DNA from: Thermoflexales bacterium
GTDB taxonomy: Bacteria; Chloroflexota; Anaerolineae; Fen-1058
Length of the DNA stretch: 42,243 nt
Reading direction: 5' to 3'
Assembly (NCBI GenBank): GCA_030834825.1
Contig: JAUQXC010000155.1
Coordinates: 1-42,243 of the forward strand
The stretch's first letter is position 1, and the number at the start of each line of letters is the position of its first letter. Shown here in pieces: positions 4,893 through 15,680 of the stretch. The notes below the pieces were generated by a model that worked only from the letters and a program-made list of their open reading frames with translations, searched no databases and had not been told where the DNA came from. The translations under genes and the position numbers were made by a program.

Positions 4893-5073
4893 CTCGGACT
4901 AAATAAACTCTAAACTTTTCGTTCTGGCGTGGTCGCTCGAATTTAGGGTTGTACTATAGGGCTAAGTCTAACGAAGATAGGACAAGCTTTGCTAGGCACC
5001 GCCTTGTCAAGTACGGTAGAATAACTAAACAAGCTGCTCATCCGTTTTGGAATTCGCTTCTAAGAGGTGCAGA

Positions 5074-8000
5074 ATGGATCGGGACAACAGGCACACGGGG
5101 AGAATGACTGTGAGCTTGCAACAATTGCTGCAGCAGATGGCGACCGTGCGCCAGCAGGCGCTCAAGTTTCAAGAATGGAATACCTCTGTCGTTGACGGCC
5201 CTCCATCCCTATGGGTAGAAATCGTCGATGAGCTGAATGTGACGCTGGAGAAATTGCAGGTCGCCGAAGAGGATCTCATCCAGCAAAATGAAGAGCTCGC
5301 GGAGGCATGTCAAGAAGCTGAAGAACGCCTCGCGGAGGTCCAGCAGTTGGCGCAGCTGGGCCATTGGGGCTGGCATGTGAGCGACAACGTCGTGTCGTGG
5401 TCCGACGAGATGTACCGCATCTATGGCCTGGAGCCGCAATCCAGGCTCATCACTTACGAAGAATTTCTACAGCGCGTCTACCCCGCAGATCGTGTCCAGG
5501 TGAGCCACGTCGTCGAAACAGCGCGTCAGTTGGGACAGCCATTCACTTTCGAGCATCGCATTGTGCGAGCCGATGGTGCCATTCGTATTCTGCAAGCACG
5601 CGGGCAGGCGGTGGTGGATCAGTGGGGACAAGTGGTTCGCCTCTTAGGCACGGGGCAGGACGTAACCGAGCGCAAGGAAGTGGAAGAGCAAGTGCGCCAG
5701 CTGAATGTTGAACTGGAACGGCGCGTCGCGACGCGCACGGGTGAGCTCAGTCGGGTCAATGTAGAACTGCGCGAGAGCGAGGAGCGCTTTCGCGTCATGG
5801 CTAATCTGGCGCCAACCATGGTGTGGACGGCCGACCCTGATGGCAAGTTGACCTATGCCAACCAGCAGTGGCTGGATTACTGTGGCGTCTCAAGCGAAGA
5901 AGCGGCGGTCGGCTGGCCGGAATTGTGCCTTCATCCAGAGGATGCCGCATATTATTTGCGGCAATGGCAGCACGCTTTGGACGAGGGCCACGAGTGCGAA
6001 GTTGAAGTGCGCAACCGGCGTTACGATGGTGAGTATCGCTGGTTCCTGACGCGGGCGGTGCCCACTCGCGATGCCGCCGGACAGATCACGGCCTGGATTG
6101 GCACCACCACCGACATTCACGATCACCGCGTCACCGAAGAAGCCATTCGTCAATTGAACCAGGAGCTCGATCGGCGTGTGGAAGAACTGGAAACCCTGTT
6201 GAACGTGCTGCCGGTCGGCATTGCCGTGGCGCACGATCCGGAATGCCGTGAGATAACCGTGAATCCGGCCTGTGCCCGGCTGTTGGGCATATCGCAGGAA
6301 GAGAATCCCTCCAAGTCGCGCCCTGACCCTGACGTTTTGCCGTTCAAAGTGCTGCGGAATGGACAGGAAGTGCCTGCCTCGGAACTACCGCTGCAGTATG
6401 CTTCCGCGCATGGCCTTGAGTTGCGCGATGTGGAATTGGATCTGGCACGGGCTGACGGGAAACAGCTGAACCTGCTTGAATATGCCTCGCCTTTGTACGA
6501 CGAATACGATCGGGTGCGCGGTTGCCTGGGGGTGATGGTGGACGTGACACCGTTCAAAGTGGTGGAACGACGCCTGGCCCTGCAATATGCGGTGGCGCAC
6601 GCCCTGGCCGAATCCATCGGCGTGAGTGAGGCCTCGGCGAAAGTGTTGCAAGCCGTGTGCGAGATCACCGGCTCGGAATTTGGCGCTTTGTGGCGCATTG
6701 ACCCGGCCACGGGTCAGCTGCGCAATGAAAGCACCTGGCAAGCGCCCACCTTGAAAGTCGACGGCTTTGCCGGGATGACACGATCGCTTCAATTTCAGTT
6801 GGATCAAGGCTTGCCGGGGCGCGTGTTTACCTCTGGCCGTCCGGTGTGGATTGCCGATATGGCCACCGCCGGTCTGCCCCGTTCACACGCCGCTCAAAGT
6901 AACGATCTGCACAGTGCCTTCGCGGTACCCATTCGTAGCGAGGGCGAAGTCACCGGGGTAATGGAATGCTTCGGTCGCACCATCCGTGAGCCGGAATTCG
7001 ATCTGATCGAACAGCTGGATGCCATTGGATATCAAGTGGGCCTGTTTATGGAGCGCAAGCAGGTGGAAGATGACCTGGCCATGCGCGTCCATCAACAAGC
7101 CATTGTGGCCGAAGTGGGCCAGCGCGCCTTGTCCGGCCTACCGCTGCAAGATCTGTTAGATGAAGTCGCAGGGCATGTCGCCCTGACGTTGAGTGTGGGT
7201 TTCTGCGGAATACTTGAGTTACAGTCCAACCCCGATCGGCTTGTCAAGCGCGCCGGGATAGGCTGGAAAGACCTGACGGACCCGCTTATTGTGAGCAGTG
7301 GTCTGGATTCAACGGCGGGCTACACCTTGGCGACGAATGAGCCACTGATCTTTAATCATCTGAAATCTGATTCACGTTTCACCGCTTCCCACGTCCTGCA
7401 CGAGCATCACATTGTCAGCGGCTTAAGCGTGAAGATCCCGGGAAAGGAACGGCCTTATGGCGTCCTGGGGGCGTACAGCACCAAGCCTCGCCTCTTTAGT
7501 GAAGATGACGTGCACTTCCTGCAAGCGGTGGCGCATGTGGTGGCTTTGGCCGTGGAACGCTGGCAGGCTGAAGCAGCATTGCAGCTGTCACGCACGGAGA
7601 TCGCCATCATTCTGGATAGCATGTCCGATGGAATCAGCGCCGTCAATCAAGAGGGTCAGCGCACCTATGCCAATCAGGCCTTGGTCCGCTTGTTGCGGTT
7701 TGACTCGATGCAGGAGATGTTGGCTCTTTCCACCACAGAATACCCCCAACGGTTTGATGTCCTGGATGAAGCGGGCCGGCCGTTAGCGCCCGATCTTTTC
7801 CCCGCCCCACGGGCGCTGCACGGCCAACCCACCCCCGGCCTGGTGGTGCGCTATAAATTTCACACGACAGGTGAAGAGATGTGGGCCGTGCTGAAATCCC
7901 AGCCGGTGTACAACGAAGCGGGTGAAGTGGTGATGGCCGTCAACATGCTGCAGGACATTTCCCATTTGAAGCGCGCCGAGCTGGCACAGCGTTTGCTGGC

Positions 8001-9987
8001 CGAGACCGGCGCGCTGTTGACCAAGGCCTTGGATTATAAGACCCGCCTGGACGAGCTGGCCCGGTTGGTCGTGCCCCGGCTGGCCGACTGGTGTGCCATT
8101 GATCTCTTGGATGAGCAGGGCGTTTTGCAACGGGTCAGTGTGGTGCATGTTGATCCGGACAAGGCCAAGTGGGCGTGGGAGCTGTGGCAGCGCTTTCCAC
8201 CCAATCCGGCGAGCAGAACGGGTAGCTATGAAGTCGTCCGCACTGGACAGCCTCAACTTTTGCCCAAGATCACACCGGAACTCTATGACCAGATTACCGA
8301 TCCAGAGTTATTAGAGATCTTGCAGCAGTTGGACCTGCACTCAGCGATGACCGTGCCCCTGACGGCGCGTGGCCGCCAGCTGGGCGTCATCACTTTCATC
8401 TGGGCCGAGTCTGGTTATCACTATACTCTGGCAGATTTGGAGCTGGCTCAGGAGCTGGCACGGCGGGCGGCCCTGGCCCTGGATAATGCGCGTTTGTATG
8501 ATGAAGCGCAGCGGTTAAACATAGAACTGGAACAGCGGGTTTTGCAGCGGACGGGGGAACTTCAAACCGCCAACATCCAATTGAACGCCGAGATCACAGA
8601 ACGCCGGCAAGCTGAAGCACAAGTCCGGAGTATGAACACTGAATTGGAAGGCCGGGTGTTGGAGCGAACCCGGCAGCTGGAAGTGATCAATCACGATTTG
8701 CAACATGAAATCACGGAACGCAAGCAGGCCGAAAAGGCGTTGCGGCTGGCCTTGCAGCGAACCCGCGAGCTGTACACCCTGAGCCAGCATATCAGCCTGG
8801 CCCGTTCAACCGAAGAGGTACTGCAGATCTTGTTGTCCAGCAGCTACCTGAAGTACACGGCGCGGGCTTCGGTGGCCATTTTCGATGCGATCTGGCGGGA
8901 GGATGAAAATCCCCCGGCGGGTTGCACCATTCTGGCCGCCTGGAATCGGGACCCGGAGACGCAGCTTTACCTCGAGCAACACATGTCCCTGGAGGAATAT
9001 GGACTGATCCCGCCCTTCTCACGCCGGGAAGTATTGTTCATCAACGATATCCGCAATGACACGCGCATCTCTGAAGTCATGCGCCAGCGCCTGTTGAGTG
9101 TGCATACGGCGAGCAGTCTTTTATTTCCGCTGATTGCCAGCGGCGAATGGTATGGCATGTTCTCCATCCACTTTCGCTTTGTCGACATCGTGAATGCCGA
9201 AGACATTTTGCATTTGCGGGGTTTGGTGGACGAGGCGGCCATGGCCATCTATAACTTCCAACTGCTGGAGAATGAAGCGCAGGCCCGGCGGGAAGCCGAA
9301 CGGGCTAACAATCTAAAGATGAAGTTCCTCGCCATGATCTCGCATGAGCTGCGCACGCCGCTGGCGTCCATCAAAGGTTTTGCCAGCACCCTGCTGGCCG
9401 GAGACGTGGTCTGGCAGCCCGAGAACCAGCAGGAGTTCATTGCCACGATCGATTCTGAAGCCGATAAGCTGGTCGACCTCATCGAACAACTGCTCGATCT
9501 CTCGCGGTTGGAAGCCGGCACCTTGCGCATCGCGCCCCGCGCTGAAAAGTGGGAACGCATTCTGGCATCGGCCCAGGCGCAGCTGCAAGCCCTGACTACT
9601 CAGCATCACTTCACCATGCAGCTGCCCCCGCACTTGCCTCCGGTCAAGGCCGACAGCCGCCGGGTTGCCCAAGTCATTACCAATCTGGTGAACAATGCCG
9701 TCAAGTATTCACCCCCCCAGACCAGCATTACCCTCAGCGTGATGCCGTACAGCGCCAGTGAAGTGAAGGTGAGCATCAGTGACGAGGGAGTGGGGATTCC
9801 ACCGGAAGCTCGCGCGCGTGTTTTTGAAGCTTTTCAACAACTGCAACAGGGCAGAAGCGACTCCAGCGGGGCCGGTTTGGGGCTGGCCATCTGTCGTGGC
9901 CTGATCGAGTCTCACGGCGGGCGCATCTGGGTGGACGAGCACGAAGGGCCAGGTACAACCCTCTCGTTTACCCTGCCGCTGGCGTAA
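5074..9987 (+). CDS. Giant soluble PAS/GAF sensor histidine kinase
   Basis: The protein has 1637 residues and no membrane segment or signal peptide. Domain order (approximate residues) is: N-terminal coiled coil 1-90, PAS 92-200, PAS 234-350, PAS 371-495, GAF 499-660, GAF 670-829, PAS 839-962, GAF 970-1136, coiled coil 1143-1226, GAF 1229-1392, HisKA 1416-1480 and HATPase_c 1522-1637. The phosphoacceptor is His1424 in FLAMISHELRTPLASIKGF. The ATP site shows NLVNNAVKYS (N box), DEGVGIP (G1), FEAFQQ and GAGLGLAI (G2), so the kinase core looks intact. No receiver domain is attached and no response regulator gene lies next to it. I chose ATG 5074 because AAGAGGTG precedes it; ATG 5104 or TTG 5047 are possible. 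It converges with the kai operon. Confidence 0.92.
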   Translation: MDRDNRHTGRMTVSLQQLLQQMATVRQQALKFQEWNTSVVDGPPSLWVEIVDELNVTLEKLQVAEEDLIQQNEELAEACQEAEERLAEVQQLAQLGHWGWHVSDNVVSWSDEMYRIYGLEPQSRLITYEEFLQRVYPADRVQVSHVVETARQLGQPFTFEHRIVRADGAIRILQARGQAVVDQWGQVVRLLGTGQDVTERKEVEEQVRQLNVELERRVATRTGELSRVNVELRESEERFRVMANLAPTMVWTADPDGKLTYANQQWLDYCGVSSEEAAVGWPELCLHPEDAAYYLRQWQHALDEGHECEVEVRNRRYDGEYRWFLTRAVPTRDAAGQITAWIGTTTDIHDHRVTEEAIRQLNQELDRRVEELETLLNVLPVGIAVAHDPECREITVNPACARLLGISQEENPSKSRPDPDVLPFKVLRNGQEVPASELPLQYASAHGLELRDVELDLARADGKQLNLLEYASPLYDEYDRVRGCLGVMVDVTPFKVVERRLALQYAVAHALAESIGVSEASAKVLQAVCEITGSEFGALWRIDPATGQLRNESTWQAPTLKVDGFAGMTRSLQFQLDQGLPGRVFTSGRPVWIADMATAGLPRSHAAQSNDLHSAFAVPIRSEGEVTGVMECFGRTIREPEFDLIEQLDAIGYQVGLFMERKQVEDDLAMRVHQQAIVAEVGQRALSGLPLQDLLDEVAGHVALTLSVGFCGILELQSNPDRLVKRAGIGWKDLTDPLIVSSGLDSTAGYTLATNEPLIFNHLKSDSRFTASHVLHEHHIVSGLSVKIPGKERPYGVLGAYSTKPRLFSEDDVHFLQAVAHVVALAVERWQAEAALQLSRTEIAIILDSMSDGISAVNQEGQRTYANQALVRLLRFDSMQEMLALSTTEYPQRFDVLDEAGRPLAPDLFPAPRALHGQPTPGLVVRYKFHTTGEEMWAVLKSQPVYNEAGEVVMAVNMLQDISHLKRAELAQRLLAETGALLTKALDYKTRLDELARLVVPRLADWCAIDLLDEQGVLQRVSVVHVDPDKAKWAWELWQRFPPNPASRTGSYEVVRTGQPQLLPKITPELYDQITDPELLEILQQLDLHSAMTVPLTARGRQLGVITFIWAESGYHYTLADLELAQELARRAALALDNARLYDEAQRLNIELEQRVLQRTGELQTANIQLNAEITERRQAEAQVRSMNTELEGRVLERTRQLEVINHDLQHEITERKQAEKALRLALQRTRELYTLSQHISLARSTEEVLQILLSSSYLKYTARASVAIFDAIWREDENPPAGCTILAAWNRDPETQLYLEQHMSLEEYGLIPPFSRREVLFINDIRNDTRISEVMRQRLLSVHTASSLLFPLIASGEWYGMFSIHFRFVDIVNAEDILHLRGLVDEAAMAIYNFQLLENEAQARREAERANNLKMKFLAMISHELRTPLASIKGFASTLLAGDVVWQPENQQEFIATIDSEADKLVDLIEQLLDLSRLEAGTLRIAPRAEKWERILASAQAQLQALTTQHHFTMQLPPHLPPVKADSRRVAQVITNLVNNAVKYSPPQTSITLSVMPYSASEVKVSISDEGVGIPPEARARVFEAFQQLQQGRSDSSGAGLGLAICRGLIESHGGRIWVDEHEGPGTTLSFTLPLA

Positions 9988-10019
9988 GGGCCCGTAAAAG
10001 AATTACTTCCGCTCCCGCT

Positions 10020-10062
10020 GGATGGGTACATCCGGCGGAAATGGCGGATGTACCCATCCGCC
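10020..10062. repeat. Double GGATG/CATCC hairpin element, copy A
   Basis: Two small hairpins lie close together: GGATG-GGTA-CATCC and GGCGGATG-TACC-CATCCGCC. The whole element is also a large inverted repeat, because the 15-base arms at 10020-10034 and 10045-10059 are exactly complementary. It lies between the convergent histidine kinase and PAS protein genes, where it may serve as a two-way terminator. A related pair occurs at 37176-37226. Confidence 0.65.
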
Positions 10063-10147
10063 AAGAGCAAACTGAGAAGTTATATTTTTACAAACGCTTA
10101 GCGTTAGGGGTCGTGGTGTGTGAGGTGCGACTTTATGGGGTCGCCGC

Positions 10148-11893
10148 TCAATCCTGCGCAGGCAGCGCTACATCAGCGCCCCGCGGATGCTGAGCCAGGT
10201 CCACCCATGAAATCAACATGCGCGATAGCTGCTGCATTTGATCGGGAACGAGACGCATCCGCAGCAGAACCTTCTTTTCATCACCGTCCACGGTGTGCAG
10301 GACGGTTTCACTTTCATGGCTTGTGCGCCCCTCGACCAGCAAGCTTAAGATTTCGCCGAGCATGGGCAGCGGTATAAAACGCGCGGGATTGAGCGGGAGA
10401 GAAAATTGATCTTTGTTGCGCGCGCCGTACAACTCCAGCGCGGCCTGATTGAAGCCGATGATTTTTAGCAGTTGGGCGCACTGCACCACGGCCTGCGGTT
10501 GTTGCGCAAAGTGTTGTCGAAAATCCTGTGTCCCCGCCAGACGCCAGTCTTGAAGTTGTGCCTGCGCAGCCGCGCAGTCGAGCTCGCACAACGCGATCGG
10601 GGAGAAATCAAACAAGTGGCGAAAGCGTTCTTCACTGTGCAGCCGTGCTTCTTCCGCCAGGCGGCGGTCGGTAATGTCGATGGTCGCCGACGAGACTCCC
10701 GTGATTTGTCCCCGCGCGTCGTACAAAGGTTCGATGAGCAAATCATAGTAGAACGTCTCACCGCGCCGCGTCAATTCAATTTCACTGCGCACGACCTGGC
10801 CCGTTTTTAGCACAAAGCGCTTCCAGCCGGTTAACAGACTGGCTTCGCTGTTGTTGAGCAGTTCGGCATCGGTCTTGCCCAGGCTCTCGCCGTACTCGGG
10901 GGGATACACCCACGTGTAACGCAGCTCGCGATCTTGATTGAAAACGGCGACGGGAGAATTCTTGAGCGCCAGGCGGAAGCGCTCTTCACTTAAGCGCAGG
11001 GCCTGCTCCATTCGCTTGCGTTCCGAGACGTTGATCAGGGTCACCACATAGCCGCTGGTCGAAGCCTGGCTGGTTTCGCTGAGGGGCGCGACGCTGATCA
11101 GGAAGGTTTGAAGTGTCGGGTCGTCTGAACAGGCGAGACCGACTTCCAGGCTGCGCACGATCTCGCCGTTCAATAGGCGGGTTACTGGCAGAGGTGCTGG
11201 CGCGCCGCTTTGATTGATCTGATACAGCGGATAGACCCGGTCGAACGGCTGCTGGAGCGGGTTGGCCGCGCTTAACGCGCGGGCGGTTTGATTGGCCTGA
11301 ATGATTCGCCCCTGCAGATCGCAGACGATGATGCCTTCTGCGGCCTGATCCAAAATTGAGCGCGCCAATCGCTCGGCCGCGATGAGATCTTGCTGACGTT
11401 TCTGGATCGTCAGGTCGGTGACCAGCAGGGCCAGCGCCTTCATTCCGTCAAACTGCAAAGCGGCGCTGGAAATGTGCACGGGCACCAGGGCGCCTTGCGC
11501 CGTTTGCACCAGCACTTCACCCCGGCCCACTTGCTGCAATAAAGCGGTCAAGACAGAGCGTTCGTCTGCACTGACATAGTCGGCCAGGTTGCTGCTGAAG
11601 ACTTGCTCGATGGGCCGGTGCAGCAGGTCGGCAAAGCGCTGATTGCAATAGAGGATGGTGCCGTCTTGCTGCACGGTGACCGCGCCTTCACTCATTTCTT
11701 GAATGAGCAGCCGGTAGGGATAATCGGCGCCCTGCAGCGTATAGATTTCATCGCCATGGGCTGTGTTCACCAGCAGCGCGTCTACTTCGCCCTGCCGAAT
11801 GGCGCGCAACGTTTCTTCGGCCTCGCTCAAGCGCAGCTGCAGCTCGTGCAGCTGCGCTTCGAATTCGCGCCGAGACTTGACGGGACTACCCAT
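10148..11893 (-). CDS. PAS-domain protein without an output domain, last gene of the kai operon
   Basis: The protein has 581 residues and is soluble. The N-terminal 50 residues form a coiled coil ending in AEETLRAIRQGEVDALLV, a segment often found at the head of PAS sensor kinases. Four PAS domains follow, at about residues 60-172, 175-300, 308-425 and 432-560; joins such as DITDRRLAEEARLHSEERFR are typical of PAC/PAS boundaries. There is no HisKA, HATPase, GGDEF, HTH or receiver region: the protein simply ends after the fourth PAS. ATG 11893 has AGGAGGG upstream and lies 48 bases after the stop of the second kaiB. Position implies a role as ligand or redox input, or as a partner of the Kai proteins, but no activity can be read from the sequence. 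Truncation of an ancestral kinase is an alternative. Confidence 0.87.
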   Translation of the reverse strand: MGSPVKSRREFEAQLHELQLRLSEAEETLRAIRQGEVDALLVNTAHGDEIYTLQGADYPYRLLIQEMSEGAVTVQQDGTILYCNQRFADLLHRPIEQVFSSNLADYVSADERSVLTALLQQVGRGEVLVQTAQGALVPVHISSAALQFDGMKALALLVTDLTIQKRQQDLIAAERLARSILDQAAEGIIVCDLQGRIIQANQTARALSAANPLQQPFDRVYPLYQINQSGAPAPLPVTRLLNGEIVRSLEVGLACSDDPTLQTFLISVAPLSETSQASTSGYVVTLINVSERKRMEQALRLSEERFRLALKNSPVAVFNQDRELRYTWVYPPEYGESLGKTDAELLNNSEASLLTGWKRFVLKTGQVVRSEIELTRRGETFYYDLLIEPLYDARGQITGVSSATIDITDRRLAEEARLHSEERFRHLFDFSPIALCELDCAAAQAQLQDWRLAGTQDFRQHFAQQPQAVVQCAQLLKIIGFNQAALELYGARNKDQFSLPLNPARFIPLPMLGEILSLLVEGRTSHESETVLHTVDGDEKKVLLRMRLVPDQMQQLSRMLISWVDLAQHPRGADVALPAQD

Positions 11894-11940
11894 GGCCGCC
11901 CTCCTGGTTGTTCGGGCGAGGACCAAAAGACAAGAGCCGC

Positions 11941-12240
11941 TTAGTGCGATTCATGGCGCATTCCCCCTAGCACACGTGCGGTATCAGATAAGTCACCAAT
12001 AAAACGGCGAACGGGTAGCGGCGCTTGCTTGACCAGCGTGGGAGTTACGATAATTTGCTCGGCGCAGGCCCGGGCTGGCTGCTGATAGATATCAATGATC
12101 TCCAGTTGATAATGGCCGGAAAACTGCTCTTCACACAAATGGCGCACATTCTGAATAGCGTTCATGGAACGCTGGGTAGCGCCCGCGATAAACAAGCGCA
12201 GCTGGTATTTTTTTCGTGAGGTGGCAGCCGGTTTGGTCAT
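11941..12240 (-). CDS. kaiB: KaiB family protein (second copy)
   Basis: The protein has 99 residues, beginning [20 protein letters not shown]. It shows the KaiB pattern: [18 protein letters not shown], then a spaced helix, [13 protein letters not shown], then [20 protein letters not shown] and [10 protein letters not shown]. KaiB is the thioredoxin-like, fold-switching partner of KaiC in the cyanobacterial clock. Compared with the first copy it has diverged more in helix 1 ([18 protein letters not shown]) and lacks the acidic residues before the cis-proline region ([13 protein letters not shown]). Its ATG overlaps the TGA of the first kaiB (ATGA), so the two are probably made together. Two different KaiBs per KaiC could compete or form mixed assemblies; this is inference. 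Confidence 0.9.
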
Positions 12241-12587
12241 CGCAGTCCATTCTTCACTGTGTGAGGCCGAATATCCAACCCCACGAGGACCCGCTCAGTA
12301 TTCGACAAATCACCAATAATTTTTTTGATGGGCTGGGGAAGCTTGCGGACCAACGTCGGGATCGCCAGAATCTGGTCGCCGCGCGCCAGCTGGGGACTTT
12401 CAACCAGGTCGACGACTTCGATGCTGTAATGACCTTCCAGATGGGTTTCACAAATACGTCGCAGGTTGGCGAAGGCGGTCAAAGACTTGGGAGTTTGGCC
12501 GGCCACATACAGGCGCAGTTCAAACTCTGGCGTCTTCTTTTCACTTCGCTTCGTCGCGCTGCTTTTCTTTGAAGCGCTATTCTTCAT
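12237..12587 (-). CDS. kaiB: KaiB family protein (first copy, canonical-like)
   Basis: The protein has 116 residues. ATG 12587 is preceded by AGGAG eight bases upstream; a longer reading to 12695 would overlap kaiC. About 20 N-terminal residues are a Lys/Ser-rich tail. The KaiB core follows: [60 protein letters not shown], then [15 protein letters not shown]. This is close to the cyanobacterial consensus (VAGNTP, D-x-L-x-x-P-x-L-A, P-T-L, IIGDLS, GLD). The gene lies about 60 bases after kaiC and overlaps the second kaiB by four bases. Confidence 0.93.
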
Positions 12588-12648
12588 GGGGGAGACTCCT
12601 TCAACCCAAAGGCGTGGCGAACGCCCTCTAAAAATGTCACGGCAATCG

Positions 12649-14181
12649 TCAAAGCGTGCGCTGGTGCTTCCCAACGCCGGCTCGTTTTTTACCATTGGGC
12701 GTTTGCGCCGGATCCGGTTGGGCGGCTGATGGAGCTGCCCCCGTCAGATCACTCGCGCTCAAACTCAGGCCGCGCTCGGTAAAGGTGTAGACGCGAATTC
12801 TATTGGAATGGGGCAGTCCGCGAGACTTCAGCACCCGCAGATCGTTCACAACCTCAGCGTCACTTTCCCAGGCGCGCAGCGAAATCCAAGTATCAGCCAA
12901 TGATGAAATCCCCGCTTGGGCTAAATTCATTTGCTCGTGCGAGCTAATCAGGTGCAGGAACAGGGTCGTGATCAGCTCGGACTTTAAGAAGTCGATTAAA
13001 CGCACGAGCATGGAATCCACTTCGAGCTTCTCACCCACGGCAATCAGATTGGTGATGGGATCGACCACCACAATCTGCGGCTTAAACGAATTGACTAGCT
13101 TATGCATCATCGCCAGGTGAGTTTCCAGGCCAAAGGCGGTGGGACGCGCCGCTTCAATATGCAGCAGGCCTTTTTTGAACTTGGGTTCAAGATTCAATCC
13201 GATGGAGCGCATATTGCGCGCGATCTGTTGCGGCGATTCCTCGAACGCAAAGTATAAGCACCGCTCACCACGGCGGCAGGCGGCATCCACAAAGTGGGCC
13301 GCTAGCGAGGTCTTGCCGGTGCCGGCGGTGCCCGTGATCAGAACGCTGCTGCCCCGATAATAGCCCTGACCCCCTAACATTTCGTCCAGACGTGGCAAGC
13401 CGGTGGAGACCCGCTCGGTCGAGACCGCATGCTGCAGTTCCAGTGAGGTAATGGGCACCACGGACACACCATTGTTATCGATCAAAAACGGATACTCATT
13501 GGTGCCATGGACCGAGCCTCGGTATTTGACGATGCGCAGGCGGCGGGTGGAGATTTGATCCGCCACCCGGTGGTCAAGCAGAATGACGCAATCCGAAACA
13601 TATTCTTCCAGGCCATGTCGCGTCAAAGAGCCGTTACCCCGTTCGGCGGTCACAATCGACGTCATGCCGCGATCTTTCAACCAGCGGAAAAGGCGTTGTA
13701 GCTCGGCGCGTAGAATGCCTTGATTGGGCAAGCCGGCGAACAGGACTTCCACTGTGTCGAGCACCACGCGCTTGGCTTTGACAGCCTCGATCGCATAACC
13801 CAGCCGTACGAAGAGGGCTTCCAGATCATACTCGCCTGTCTCTTCAATCTCACTGCGTTCAATGTGCACGTAATCAATATTTAAGCGGTTGCGCGCCACC
13901 AGCTCCGCCAGATCAAAACCCAGTGAGGCCGCATTCTGTTGCAACTCCAATTCGGACTCTTCAAAGGCCATGAAAACGCCAGGTTCGTCGTATTGTTCGG
14001 CGCCACGAACCAGGAACTCCAACGCCAGCATGGTCTTGCCACAACCGGGTCCACCGCAGACCAGGGTAGGGCGTCCCATGGGCAGTCCGCCGCCCGTAAT
14101 TTTATCCAGGCCTGAAATCCCCATGGGTGACTTCGACAAAGAAACAAGCGTGGACAACCCCTGCCTTTTTTGAATCGCCAT
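12649..14181 (-). CDS. kaiC: KaiC family circadian-type ATPase/autokinase
   Basis: The protein has 510 residues (cyanobacterial KaiC has 519), with tandem RecA-like CI and CII domains. CI has the P-loop GGPGCGKT (residues 43-50), a Glu pair at 74-75 (FEESELEL) and Walker B Asp near 142. CII has GTAGTGKT (284-291), a Glu pair at 314-315 ([11 protein letters not shown]) and Walker B Asp near 374 (IVVVDPIT). By ungapped alignment around HIS-T-I-T-D of Synechococcus KaiC, the phosphosites S431/T432 correspond to Ser426-Ser427 ([10 protein letters not shown]) and T426 to Ala. So the site is Ser-Ser and the neighbouring Thr is lost. The C-terminal 35 residues are a Pro/Ala/basic tail. AAAGG precedes ATG 14181. 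It is the first gene of the kaiC-kaiB-kaiB-PAS unit. Confidence 0.95.
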
Positions 14182-14547: not shown

Positions 14548-14575
14548 TTGACAAATCACAAAGCGGCCTTATACT
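14548..14575 (+). promoter_or_regulatory. Sigma-70 promoter for the first lacI gene
   Basis: TTGACA (14548-14553), a 16-base spacer, then TATACT (14570-14575), close to consensus. It lies about 47 bases upstream of the ATG at 14622. Confidence 0.8.
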
Positions 14576-14621: not shown

Positions 14622-15680
14622 ATGGCAACCCGCACCAGCCGCAAACCAGACTCCCCCAAACGCGTTACCCTTTCTGATATTGCCGAGAAAAGCAAGGTGT
14701 CGTTAACCACGGTTTCCTTGGTGCTCCGAAATAAATCCGGCGCCGGCATCCCCAGCGAAACGCGCCAGCGGGTGTTGGATACGGCGCGCGGTCTGGGTTA
14801 CCGCCTGAAGGTACCCAGCGAGACGCGTCAGGGCATGAATCAAATCGGAGTCGTGCTCAAGGCGCGCGGCGATGATTTGCCGCTGACGAATCCGTTTTAC
14901 TCGCACATCCTGGCCGGCATTGAAGCGGCCTGTCGCCAGAACCGCGTGAATCTGTTGAGCGCCACGCTGCCGGTTGATGCCGATAACTACCCCACCGACT
15001 TGCCCCGTTTTGTGGAAGAAGAACATGTCGATGGCTTATTGTTGGTGGGCACCTTTGTCGACCAGACGCTCGATCACTTGTTAGGCCAGAAGTCGATCCC
15101 GATTGTGTTGGTGGATGCCTATTCTGAATCGAACGCCTATGACGCCGTGGTGACTGAGAATTATGATGGAGCATATCAAGCCGTGTCCTACTTGATCGAA
15201 CATGGGCACCGGCATATCGGTATCGTGGGCAGCCAGCCCCGCGCTTATCCTTCCATTCGGGAGCGGCGGCGCGCCTACGTGGATGCCTTGCAGGAACACG
15301 GCCTGACCGCATCCTACTTTGCCGATTGTCACCTGATCAAAGAAGAAGCGTATGTGGCCGTTACGCAGCTGCTGCAAGACCAGCCCCAGCTGACCGCGGT
15401 CTTCTGCGTGAACGACGATATTGCCACGGCCACCATTCGGGCGGCGCACGGGCTGGGCAAGCGCCTGCCGCAAGACCTCTCCATCATCGGCTTCGACGAC
15501 ATTGACCTGGCCCACTTGACTCATCCCTCTCTGACGACCATGCAGGTCGACAAAATCAATATGGGGCGCATGGCCCTGCAAGCGCTGCTGAATCGGGCGC
15601 AATCGCCGGATTCACCGCGTGTGACCATGGCGCTGCGCACCCGCTTAATCGAACGACAATCTGTGCGGGACATCCGCTAA
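14622..15680 (+). CDS. LacI family transcriptional regulator
   Basis: The protein has 352 residues. The N-terminal helix-turn-helix is [20 protein letters not shown] (about residues 15-35), followed by the hinge helix and a periplasmic-binding-like ligand domain. That domain includes [57 protein letters not shown] and [20 protein letters not shown]. It starts the long plus-strand run of mannan genes, with GH130 14 bases downstream, so it probably responds to a manno-oligosaccharide or a phosphorylated derivative. A strong promoter and an operator-like repeat precede it, pointing to autoregulation. The Shine-Dalgarno is weak (AGGCG). Confidence 0.93.

Follow-up and report, generated by a model that had tools for sequence, protein, structure and literature searches.

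The window, a whole contig of 42,243 nucleotides (C827; JAUQXC010000155.1) from the Thermoflexales assembly GCA_030834825.1, carries on its minus strand a kai operon with one kaiC, two different kaiB genes and a gene for a PAS protein. Judged from its sequence, the operon most likely encodes a KaiC2 timer whose output pair is without an effector of its own. It is a real, well-formed variant of a known operon kind, in which a sensor stands without the usual signal-passing part, and its layout, kaiC-kaiB(a)-kaiB(b)-coil-PAS, is by gene order widespread and not special to the window's genome or phylum. The features of the operon are as follows.

12649-14181, minus strand: kaiC, KaiC2-type, 510 amino acids, with P-loops at residues 43 and 284 and Ser426-Ser427; the C-terminal coiled coil is absent.
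12237-12587, minus strand: kaiB1, the class-a (first) KaiB, 116 amino acids.
11941-12240, minus strand: kaiB2, the class-b (second) KaiB, 99 amino acids, divergent, with an ATGA overlap with kaiB1.
10148-11893, minus strand: PAS protein, 581 amino acids, with an N-terminal coil-PAS module and further PAS domains and no output domain.
11636-11893, minus strand: coil-PAS module, common to the fourth protein of KaiC2-type operons.

Each of the four minus-strand genes is open, with zero internal stops, and from their spacing we infer that they lie in one transcript. The likely start of kaiB1 is the ATG at 12587 behind AAGGAG, rather than the start of the longest open reading frame at 12695, and that of the PAS gene is the ATG at 11893 behind AGGAGG. 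Both KaiBs exceed the Pfam KaiB cut-off (PF07689; 9.4e-27 and 1.8e-24), and neither reaches the NCBIfam KaiB cut-offs; with 40% identity to each other and genes overlapping by ATGA at 12237-12240, they bear out the description, in an earlier note on this DNA, of two distinct KaiBs in one minus-strand set. Equally upheld was its description of the operon as KaiA-less: the KaiA of the KaiABC oscillator (PF07688) was not found in the genome (8.0 Mb, 987 contigs, 94.85% complete, 4.35% contaminated) by a search that recovers the S. elongatus control. No KaiB beyond kaiB1 and kaiB2 was found in this genome either, and its remaining KaiC-family matches are short frames of 255 and 262 amino acids, or weak. 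Pfam (E up to 0.01) revealed no HisKA, HATPase, GGDEF, EAL or HD domain in the PAS protein, and all its NCBIfam matches, save a PAS domain model, stayed far under the family cut-offs. The earlier claim of a four-PAS protein without output domain thus stands as to the effector, while the PAS count is three or four, Pfam PAS_4 giving three stretches and a custom profile four, then three. We rejected a reading of the PAS protein as a kinase with a broken frame: only 160 bases lie between its stop and the 3' end of the convergent kinase gene, and custom profiles show no kinase domain on the minus strand beyond that stop.

The kaiC product has two KaiC ATPase domains (PF06745, 1.8e-107), in agreement with the double-domain KaiC described before, where the lack of a coiled-coil tail went unmentioned. 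At the place of the S431/T432 phosphosite pair it has Ser426-Ser427, two serines as in KaiC2, and its best PDB matches are the R. sphaeroides KaiC entries 8DB3, 8DBA and 8FWI (E 1.9e-167 or better; next 6.3e-105); by these sites and this kinship, it is classified as KaiC2-type. The NCBIfam model PRK09302 is over its cut-off (678.8 vs 408 bits) and TIGR02655 under (337.7 vs 546.25). A C-terminal coiled-coil extension predominates in the KaiC2 clade without strictly defining it, as described in PMC10076222. Past RGLSL, the window KaiC has 36 residues without coil character, compared with at least 60 in 96 of the 100 near relatives defined below (93-118 residues in all but L079), and it is also missing the GVLTGSAR-like stretch found ahead of the coil in those coil-bearing tails that were compared. 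No GVLTGSAR-coil hidden in another frame turned up in any of the three frames of 12561-12800, and an STSAR in one of them was judged a chance occurrence. Short tails also occur in three other KaiCs (L159, L169 and L176), each from a genome in the same phylum; on the tree the four coil-less KaiCs amount to three changes. At L159 and L169 no module gene is adjacent, the window's module is without effector, and L176 has a kinase; any link between coil loss and effector loss is weak, and we draw no conclusion on it because three losses on the tree are too few. Two hexamers of the R. sphaeroides protein are joined through the coil, and a coil-less construct phosphorylates itself and falls apart on KaiB binding, according to PMC10076222. 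For the window this experiment serves as an analogy only, because its KaiC is also without the GVLTGSAR-like stretch.

The KaiC census counted 119 loci (relatives, genome-sample loci and the window), of which 100, namely the window, its 80 best relatives and 19 genome-sample loci, reach 50% KaiC identity to the window and were used for the counts per 100; since the 80 are the best of 589 confirmed relatives, these counts hold for near relatives rather than for KaiC at large. Two or more KaiB open reading frames follow kaiC at 75 of these 100 loci, so the layout that the earlier note singled out is not distinctive. The record titles of the 80 best relatives span Proteobacteria, Bacteroidota, Planctomycetes, Nitrospira, Acidobacteria, Chloroflexota, Spirochaetes and archaea (Methanoperedens), among other groups. 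When the gene runs behind kaiC are scored for a kinase first, then for GGDEF/EAL, HD-GYP, sigma-54 and finally PAS only, 66 loci have a kinase, 6 GGDEF/EAL, 7 HD-GYP, 2 a sigma-54 activator, 15 PAS only and 4 nothing. The PAS-only runs are those of the window, of ten single-PAS proteins (Bacteroidales, Balneolaceae), of L040 and of L074, L107 and L152, and the empty ones those of L077, L080, L159 and L169; contig ends cut, or terminate, L074, L077, L080, L107 and L152. Domains were called across the loci with custom profiles grown from window and locus seeds, and ten fourth proteins, two of them of the single-PAS kind (L046, L052), were checked with Pfam. In almost all non-cyanobacterial kaiC-kaiB clusters compared in PMC3164672, a kinase or GGDEF/EAL gene comes right after kaiC or kaiB. 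The census left out the short loci L001-L031 and L112-L151 (except L143), most of them pieces of regions fetched at greater length; L118-L129 gave a weak KaiB-like match only, and L003, L004, L007, L009, L020, L023, L024, L027, L029, L031 and L151 bear a KaiC and went uncounted without a longer region.

The first and second KaiBs appear to represent two order-conserved classes, a and b, albeit weakly supported ones. In a tree of 194 KaiB domains (alignment of 93 columns), one branch splits 75/75 first-position from 75/75 second-position KaiBs (150/150), and 0 of 500 label shuffles reached the observed clustering, whichever label was taken; near copies also work in favour of this test. The single KaiBs (n=29, four from other KaiC types) fall 20 on the first and 9 on the second side of this branch. 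Among the column differences of class b are Tyr48-Gln49 and Lys67 (T. elongatus numbering), and KaiB2 of the window has all three. With profiles that exclude the window copies, KaiB1 scored 162 bits for class a against 127 for class b, and KaiB2 129 bits for class b against 110 for class a.

The fourth proteins start alike, with a coil, then a linker, then a PAS domain, recognisable by sequence. A profile built from 25 of them found this module in the gene run after kaiC at 96 of the 100 operons; it is missing at the contig ends of L077 and L080 and at L159 and L169, where no such gene follows. The 19 KaiC loci outside the 100 gave three weak matches of about 30 bits. In the window's module the conserved positions are retained, and its identity to 24 aligned relatives is 35-62%; the R. 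sphaeroides kai-operon kinase carries the module (70 bits), and the copies in the same-phylum genome G295 (L157) and in the Oscillochloris bin L093 are almost the same. Two order-conserved KaiB classes and a shared module were not found in print among the open-licence PMC papers searched, and a search of phage records gave no match. In a sample of 400 genomes of the phylum, the module occurs in 22, all among the 41 with a KaiB over the cut-off, of which 19 are without module match. Among 298 genomes of the class it occurs in eight, including all six whose KaiC shares 56% identity or more with the window KaiC (the window's own G000, G413, G444, G518, G570 and G617); in the other two, G400 and G585, no KaiC was found. 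Across these samples, the module thus appears nearly confined to kai-bearing genomes. The earlier note had tied the PAS protein to the kai system and named random occurrence without kai genes as the result that would speak against it; applied to the protein's N-terminal module, this test supports the tie, 22 of 22 module genomes in the phylum sample having a KaiB and six of eight in the class sample a KaiC.

In G400, which belongs to the window's genus, a module-GAF-PAS-kinase protein of 1253 amino acids adjoins a kaiB remnant (L201, 3935-8007), possibly a relic kai locus. This bears on the explanation that the window's locus is decaying as well, its coil and effector lost since the system is no longer needed: besides the same-genus relic, two absences in one operon and the long branch of kaiB2 (1.3) would fit such a decay. 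The uninterrupted genes with their likely ribosome sites and tight spacing, the intact P-loops and Ser-Ser of KaiC and the identity that the module retains to its relatives argue against it, and we consider decay improbable.

Three lines point to an output role of class b. The first is likeness to known proteins. The KaiB-like N-domain of cyanobacterial SasA is found by the class-b profile (E 4.2e-4 vs 1.4 for class a); in SasA this domain is fused to a kinase, whereas the window's KaiB2 is a stand-alone protein of 99 amino acids with no kinase in the operon. Lpp1115 of Legionella (4KUN), which we take to be the Legionella KaiB crystallised in the fold-switched state, scored 88.6 bits for class b vs 68.4 for class a. 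The crystal of a Legionella KaiB in this state is described in PMC10808063. The second line is given by fusions: at L110 a class-b KaiB is joined to module, GAF, GGDEF and EAL, and at L225 and L230 a PAS-PAS-KaiB protein with class-b KaiB (132 vs 112 bits) lies directly upstream of a module-HD-GYP protein. A KaiB-PAS-kinase fusion without module (L190 and its piece L131) is undecided as to class at 75 vs 71 bits. The third line comes from loci without KaiC2. In G118 and G134 (one contig each), where the best KaiC is 36-37% identical and no KaiC2 is present, the sole KaiB at the locus is of class b, directly beside a module kinase and matching the second KaiB of G206 at 86% and 90% identity; this genome of the same genus has all the genes, suggesting that G118 and G134 lost KaiC2 and KaiB(a). 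In G222, KaiC2 and a class-a KaiB share one locus and KaiB(b) and the module another.

These fusions and separated loci tie KaiB(b) to the output protein and not to KaiB(a), which argues against the model of the earlier note, in which one KaiC site would be contested by KaiB1 and KaiB2, with the PAS protein tuning them by a light, redox or ligand signal. Both KaiBs are intact beside one KaiC, and cyanobacterial SasA and KaiB do compete for KaiC (PMC6769508). Competing KaiC partners therefore remain one reading of the operon, though one of low probability in our view; the data favour different jobs for the two KaiBs because the second travels with the output protein. The single-contig genomes of L228 (5449-8379) and L229 (5359-8506) have a class-b KaiB, a module kinase and a PAS gene and no KaiC2.

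AlphaFold models of both KaiBs were made from the ten nearest relatives each (11-row alignments). In Foldseek, the 17 best matches of the KaiB1 model are ground-state KaiBs and the six best of the KaiB2 model fold-switched ones, a hint that KaiB1 is ground-state-like and KaiB2 nearer the fold-switched state; it stays a hint because the predicted local distance difference test (pLDDT) scores are low (63 and 59), with residues 62-99 of KaiB2, the switching half, below 50. Residues K57, G88 and D90 of S. elongatus KaiB were proposed as fold-switch regulators in PMC5520375, and Arg is enriched in fold-switched clusters at a place that we map to T. elongatus position 73 (PMC10808063). Aligned to T. 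elongatus positions 58, 89 and 91, KaiB1 has Gln, Gly and Asp, and KaiB2 Gln, Gly and Arg. Arg at position 91 presumably favours the switched fold.

From the observed gene content, orthology classes, co-occurrence and absences, the following mechanism is proposed, in which binding, folds, signalling direction and the effector in trans are what we infer. KaiC2 and the first KaiB would form the timer, an ATP-driven hourglass of phosphorylation and dephosphorylation as reported for R. sphaeroides KaiBC, and KaiB(b) and the coil-PAS protein the output pair. Like the KaiB-like domain of SasA, KaiB(b) would be kept in the KaiC-binding fold, or be biased toward it, and pass the state of KaiC to the coil-PAS protein, whose C-terminal effector differs among organisms. 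Because the window's coil-PAS protein ends after its PAS domains, its signal would have to go to an effector in trans, for which a PAS/GAF kinase is a candidate, and because its KaiC is without the C-terminal coiled coil, this would be a hexamer that KaiB can take apart, like the coil-deleted R. sphaeroides protein. Taken as a whole, with a KaiC2/KaiB1 timer, a KaiB2/PAS output pair and an effector in trans, we give this reading about an even chance. More tentative, and to us rather doubtful, is its extension to tandem KaiBs of bacteria and archaea in general, by which KaiB(a) would be the part of the clock that switches fold slowly, and KaiB(b) an adaptor in the switched fold, akin to SasA and devoted to a coil-PAS protein with exchangeable effectors, the window having an adaptor-PAS pair without its own effector and, as KaiC, a natural coil-less hexamer.

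Several points weigh against the timer with an output pair. The class-splitting branch has an SH-like approximate likelihood ratio test (SH-aLRT) support of 13 only, and because of this and the 93 columns the split rests on agreement with gene order across phyla. KaiB(b) can be the sole KaiB beside a KaiC2, since the tree puts 9 of the 29 single KaiBs with class b. The class score of the L110 fusion is partly circular because its KaiB domain is part of the class-b profile, while its side of the tree is not. Both KaiB models are weak, above all in the switching half of KaiB2, and at T. elongatus position 89 KaiB2 has retained Gly, while its residue at 73 is Val, so that only Arg91 suggests the switched fold. 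In G585, module pieces lie in two frames with no kai gene seen, in G380 the module is apart from the kai genes, and at L176 the coil is gone with the kinase present.

Among known systems, kaiC-kaiB-PAS/HK (PAS/histidine kinase) operons are described for R. palustris and R. sphaeroides in PMC4794148. The window follows their order of kaiC, kaiB and module protein, without an effector domain. The R. sphaeroides operon resembles it in a KaiC2-type KaiC, a KaiB nearer class a and a next gene with the coil-PAS module, and differs in having one KaiB, a KaiC of 570 amino acids with coiled coil and an HWE kinase after KaiB; for the KaiBC hourglass of R. palustris, the likeness is known from literature only (PMC4794148). 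A plasmid operon of Pararhizobium qamdonense shares the order kaiC-kaiB-kaiB-module protein, with KaiBs scoring as a and b and the module next, and differs by its kinase effector and a 566-amino-acid KaiC with coil. On large plasmids typed conjugative, KaiC2-like operons are found in Pararhizobium and Rhizobium (L240, L242), and the kai system may therefore move. A module protein without detected effector is also encoded in KaiC2 operons from Bacteroidales and from a Balneolaceae bin (L046, L052 and eight more), but there it has one PAS domain and 235-242 amino acids, and the KaiC has a coil; at L039, L045 and L070, a kinase gene directly follows a similar protein. The Legionella pneumophila kai operon, in which we take there to be two kaiB genes and a GGDEF-EAL protein as fourth gene, is alike in that Lpp1115 is nearer the class-b KaiBs by profile score.

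This likeness leads to a further explanation, a stress-response switch without timing role as reported for the Legionella operon (stress role cited in PMC5520375 and PMC11832031). It is also consistent with the absence from the genome of the reaction-centre family PF00124, the sole such family searched. Timer behaviour, on the other hand, is reported for the R. palustris and R. sphaeroides KaiC2 systems (PMC4794148, PMC10076222), and we regard a pure stress switch as unlikely, while giving it some weight.

The interest of the window's operon lies mainly in the general pattern that it exposes. For the output of KaiA-less Kai systems, a module with exchangeable effectors and an accompanying second KaiB would be a concrete candidate for the missing link, and one operon design ties together distant bacteria and archaea (Methanoperedens, Planctomycetes, Bacteroidota, Chloroflexota). 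The coil-less Ser-Ser KaiC may, by analogy, be a natural counterpart of the coil-deleted R. sphaeroides construct, whose hexamer breaks up on KaiB binding. In a genome of the same class, a KaiC-KaiB fusion protein of 786 amino acids was seen (L180, 2668-5028).

Around the operon, one further feature was recorded.

10011-10068, no strand: inverted repeat with 24-nucleotide arms (10011-10034/10045-10068), separating the operon from the kinase gene that converges on it; may serve as a terminator in both directions.

No T-run terminator was reported at this repeat. The kinase gene (5047-9987, plus strand) encodes a PAS/GAF histidine kinase of 1646 amino acids, ends 160 bases from the oppositely oriented PAS gene and is a candidate effector in trans. 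On the other side, a divergent gene for a LacI-type regulator lies at 14622-15680 (plus strand), with a promoter-like match (11 of 12) upstream at 14548-14575 (plus strand).

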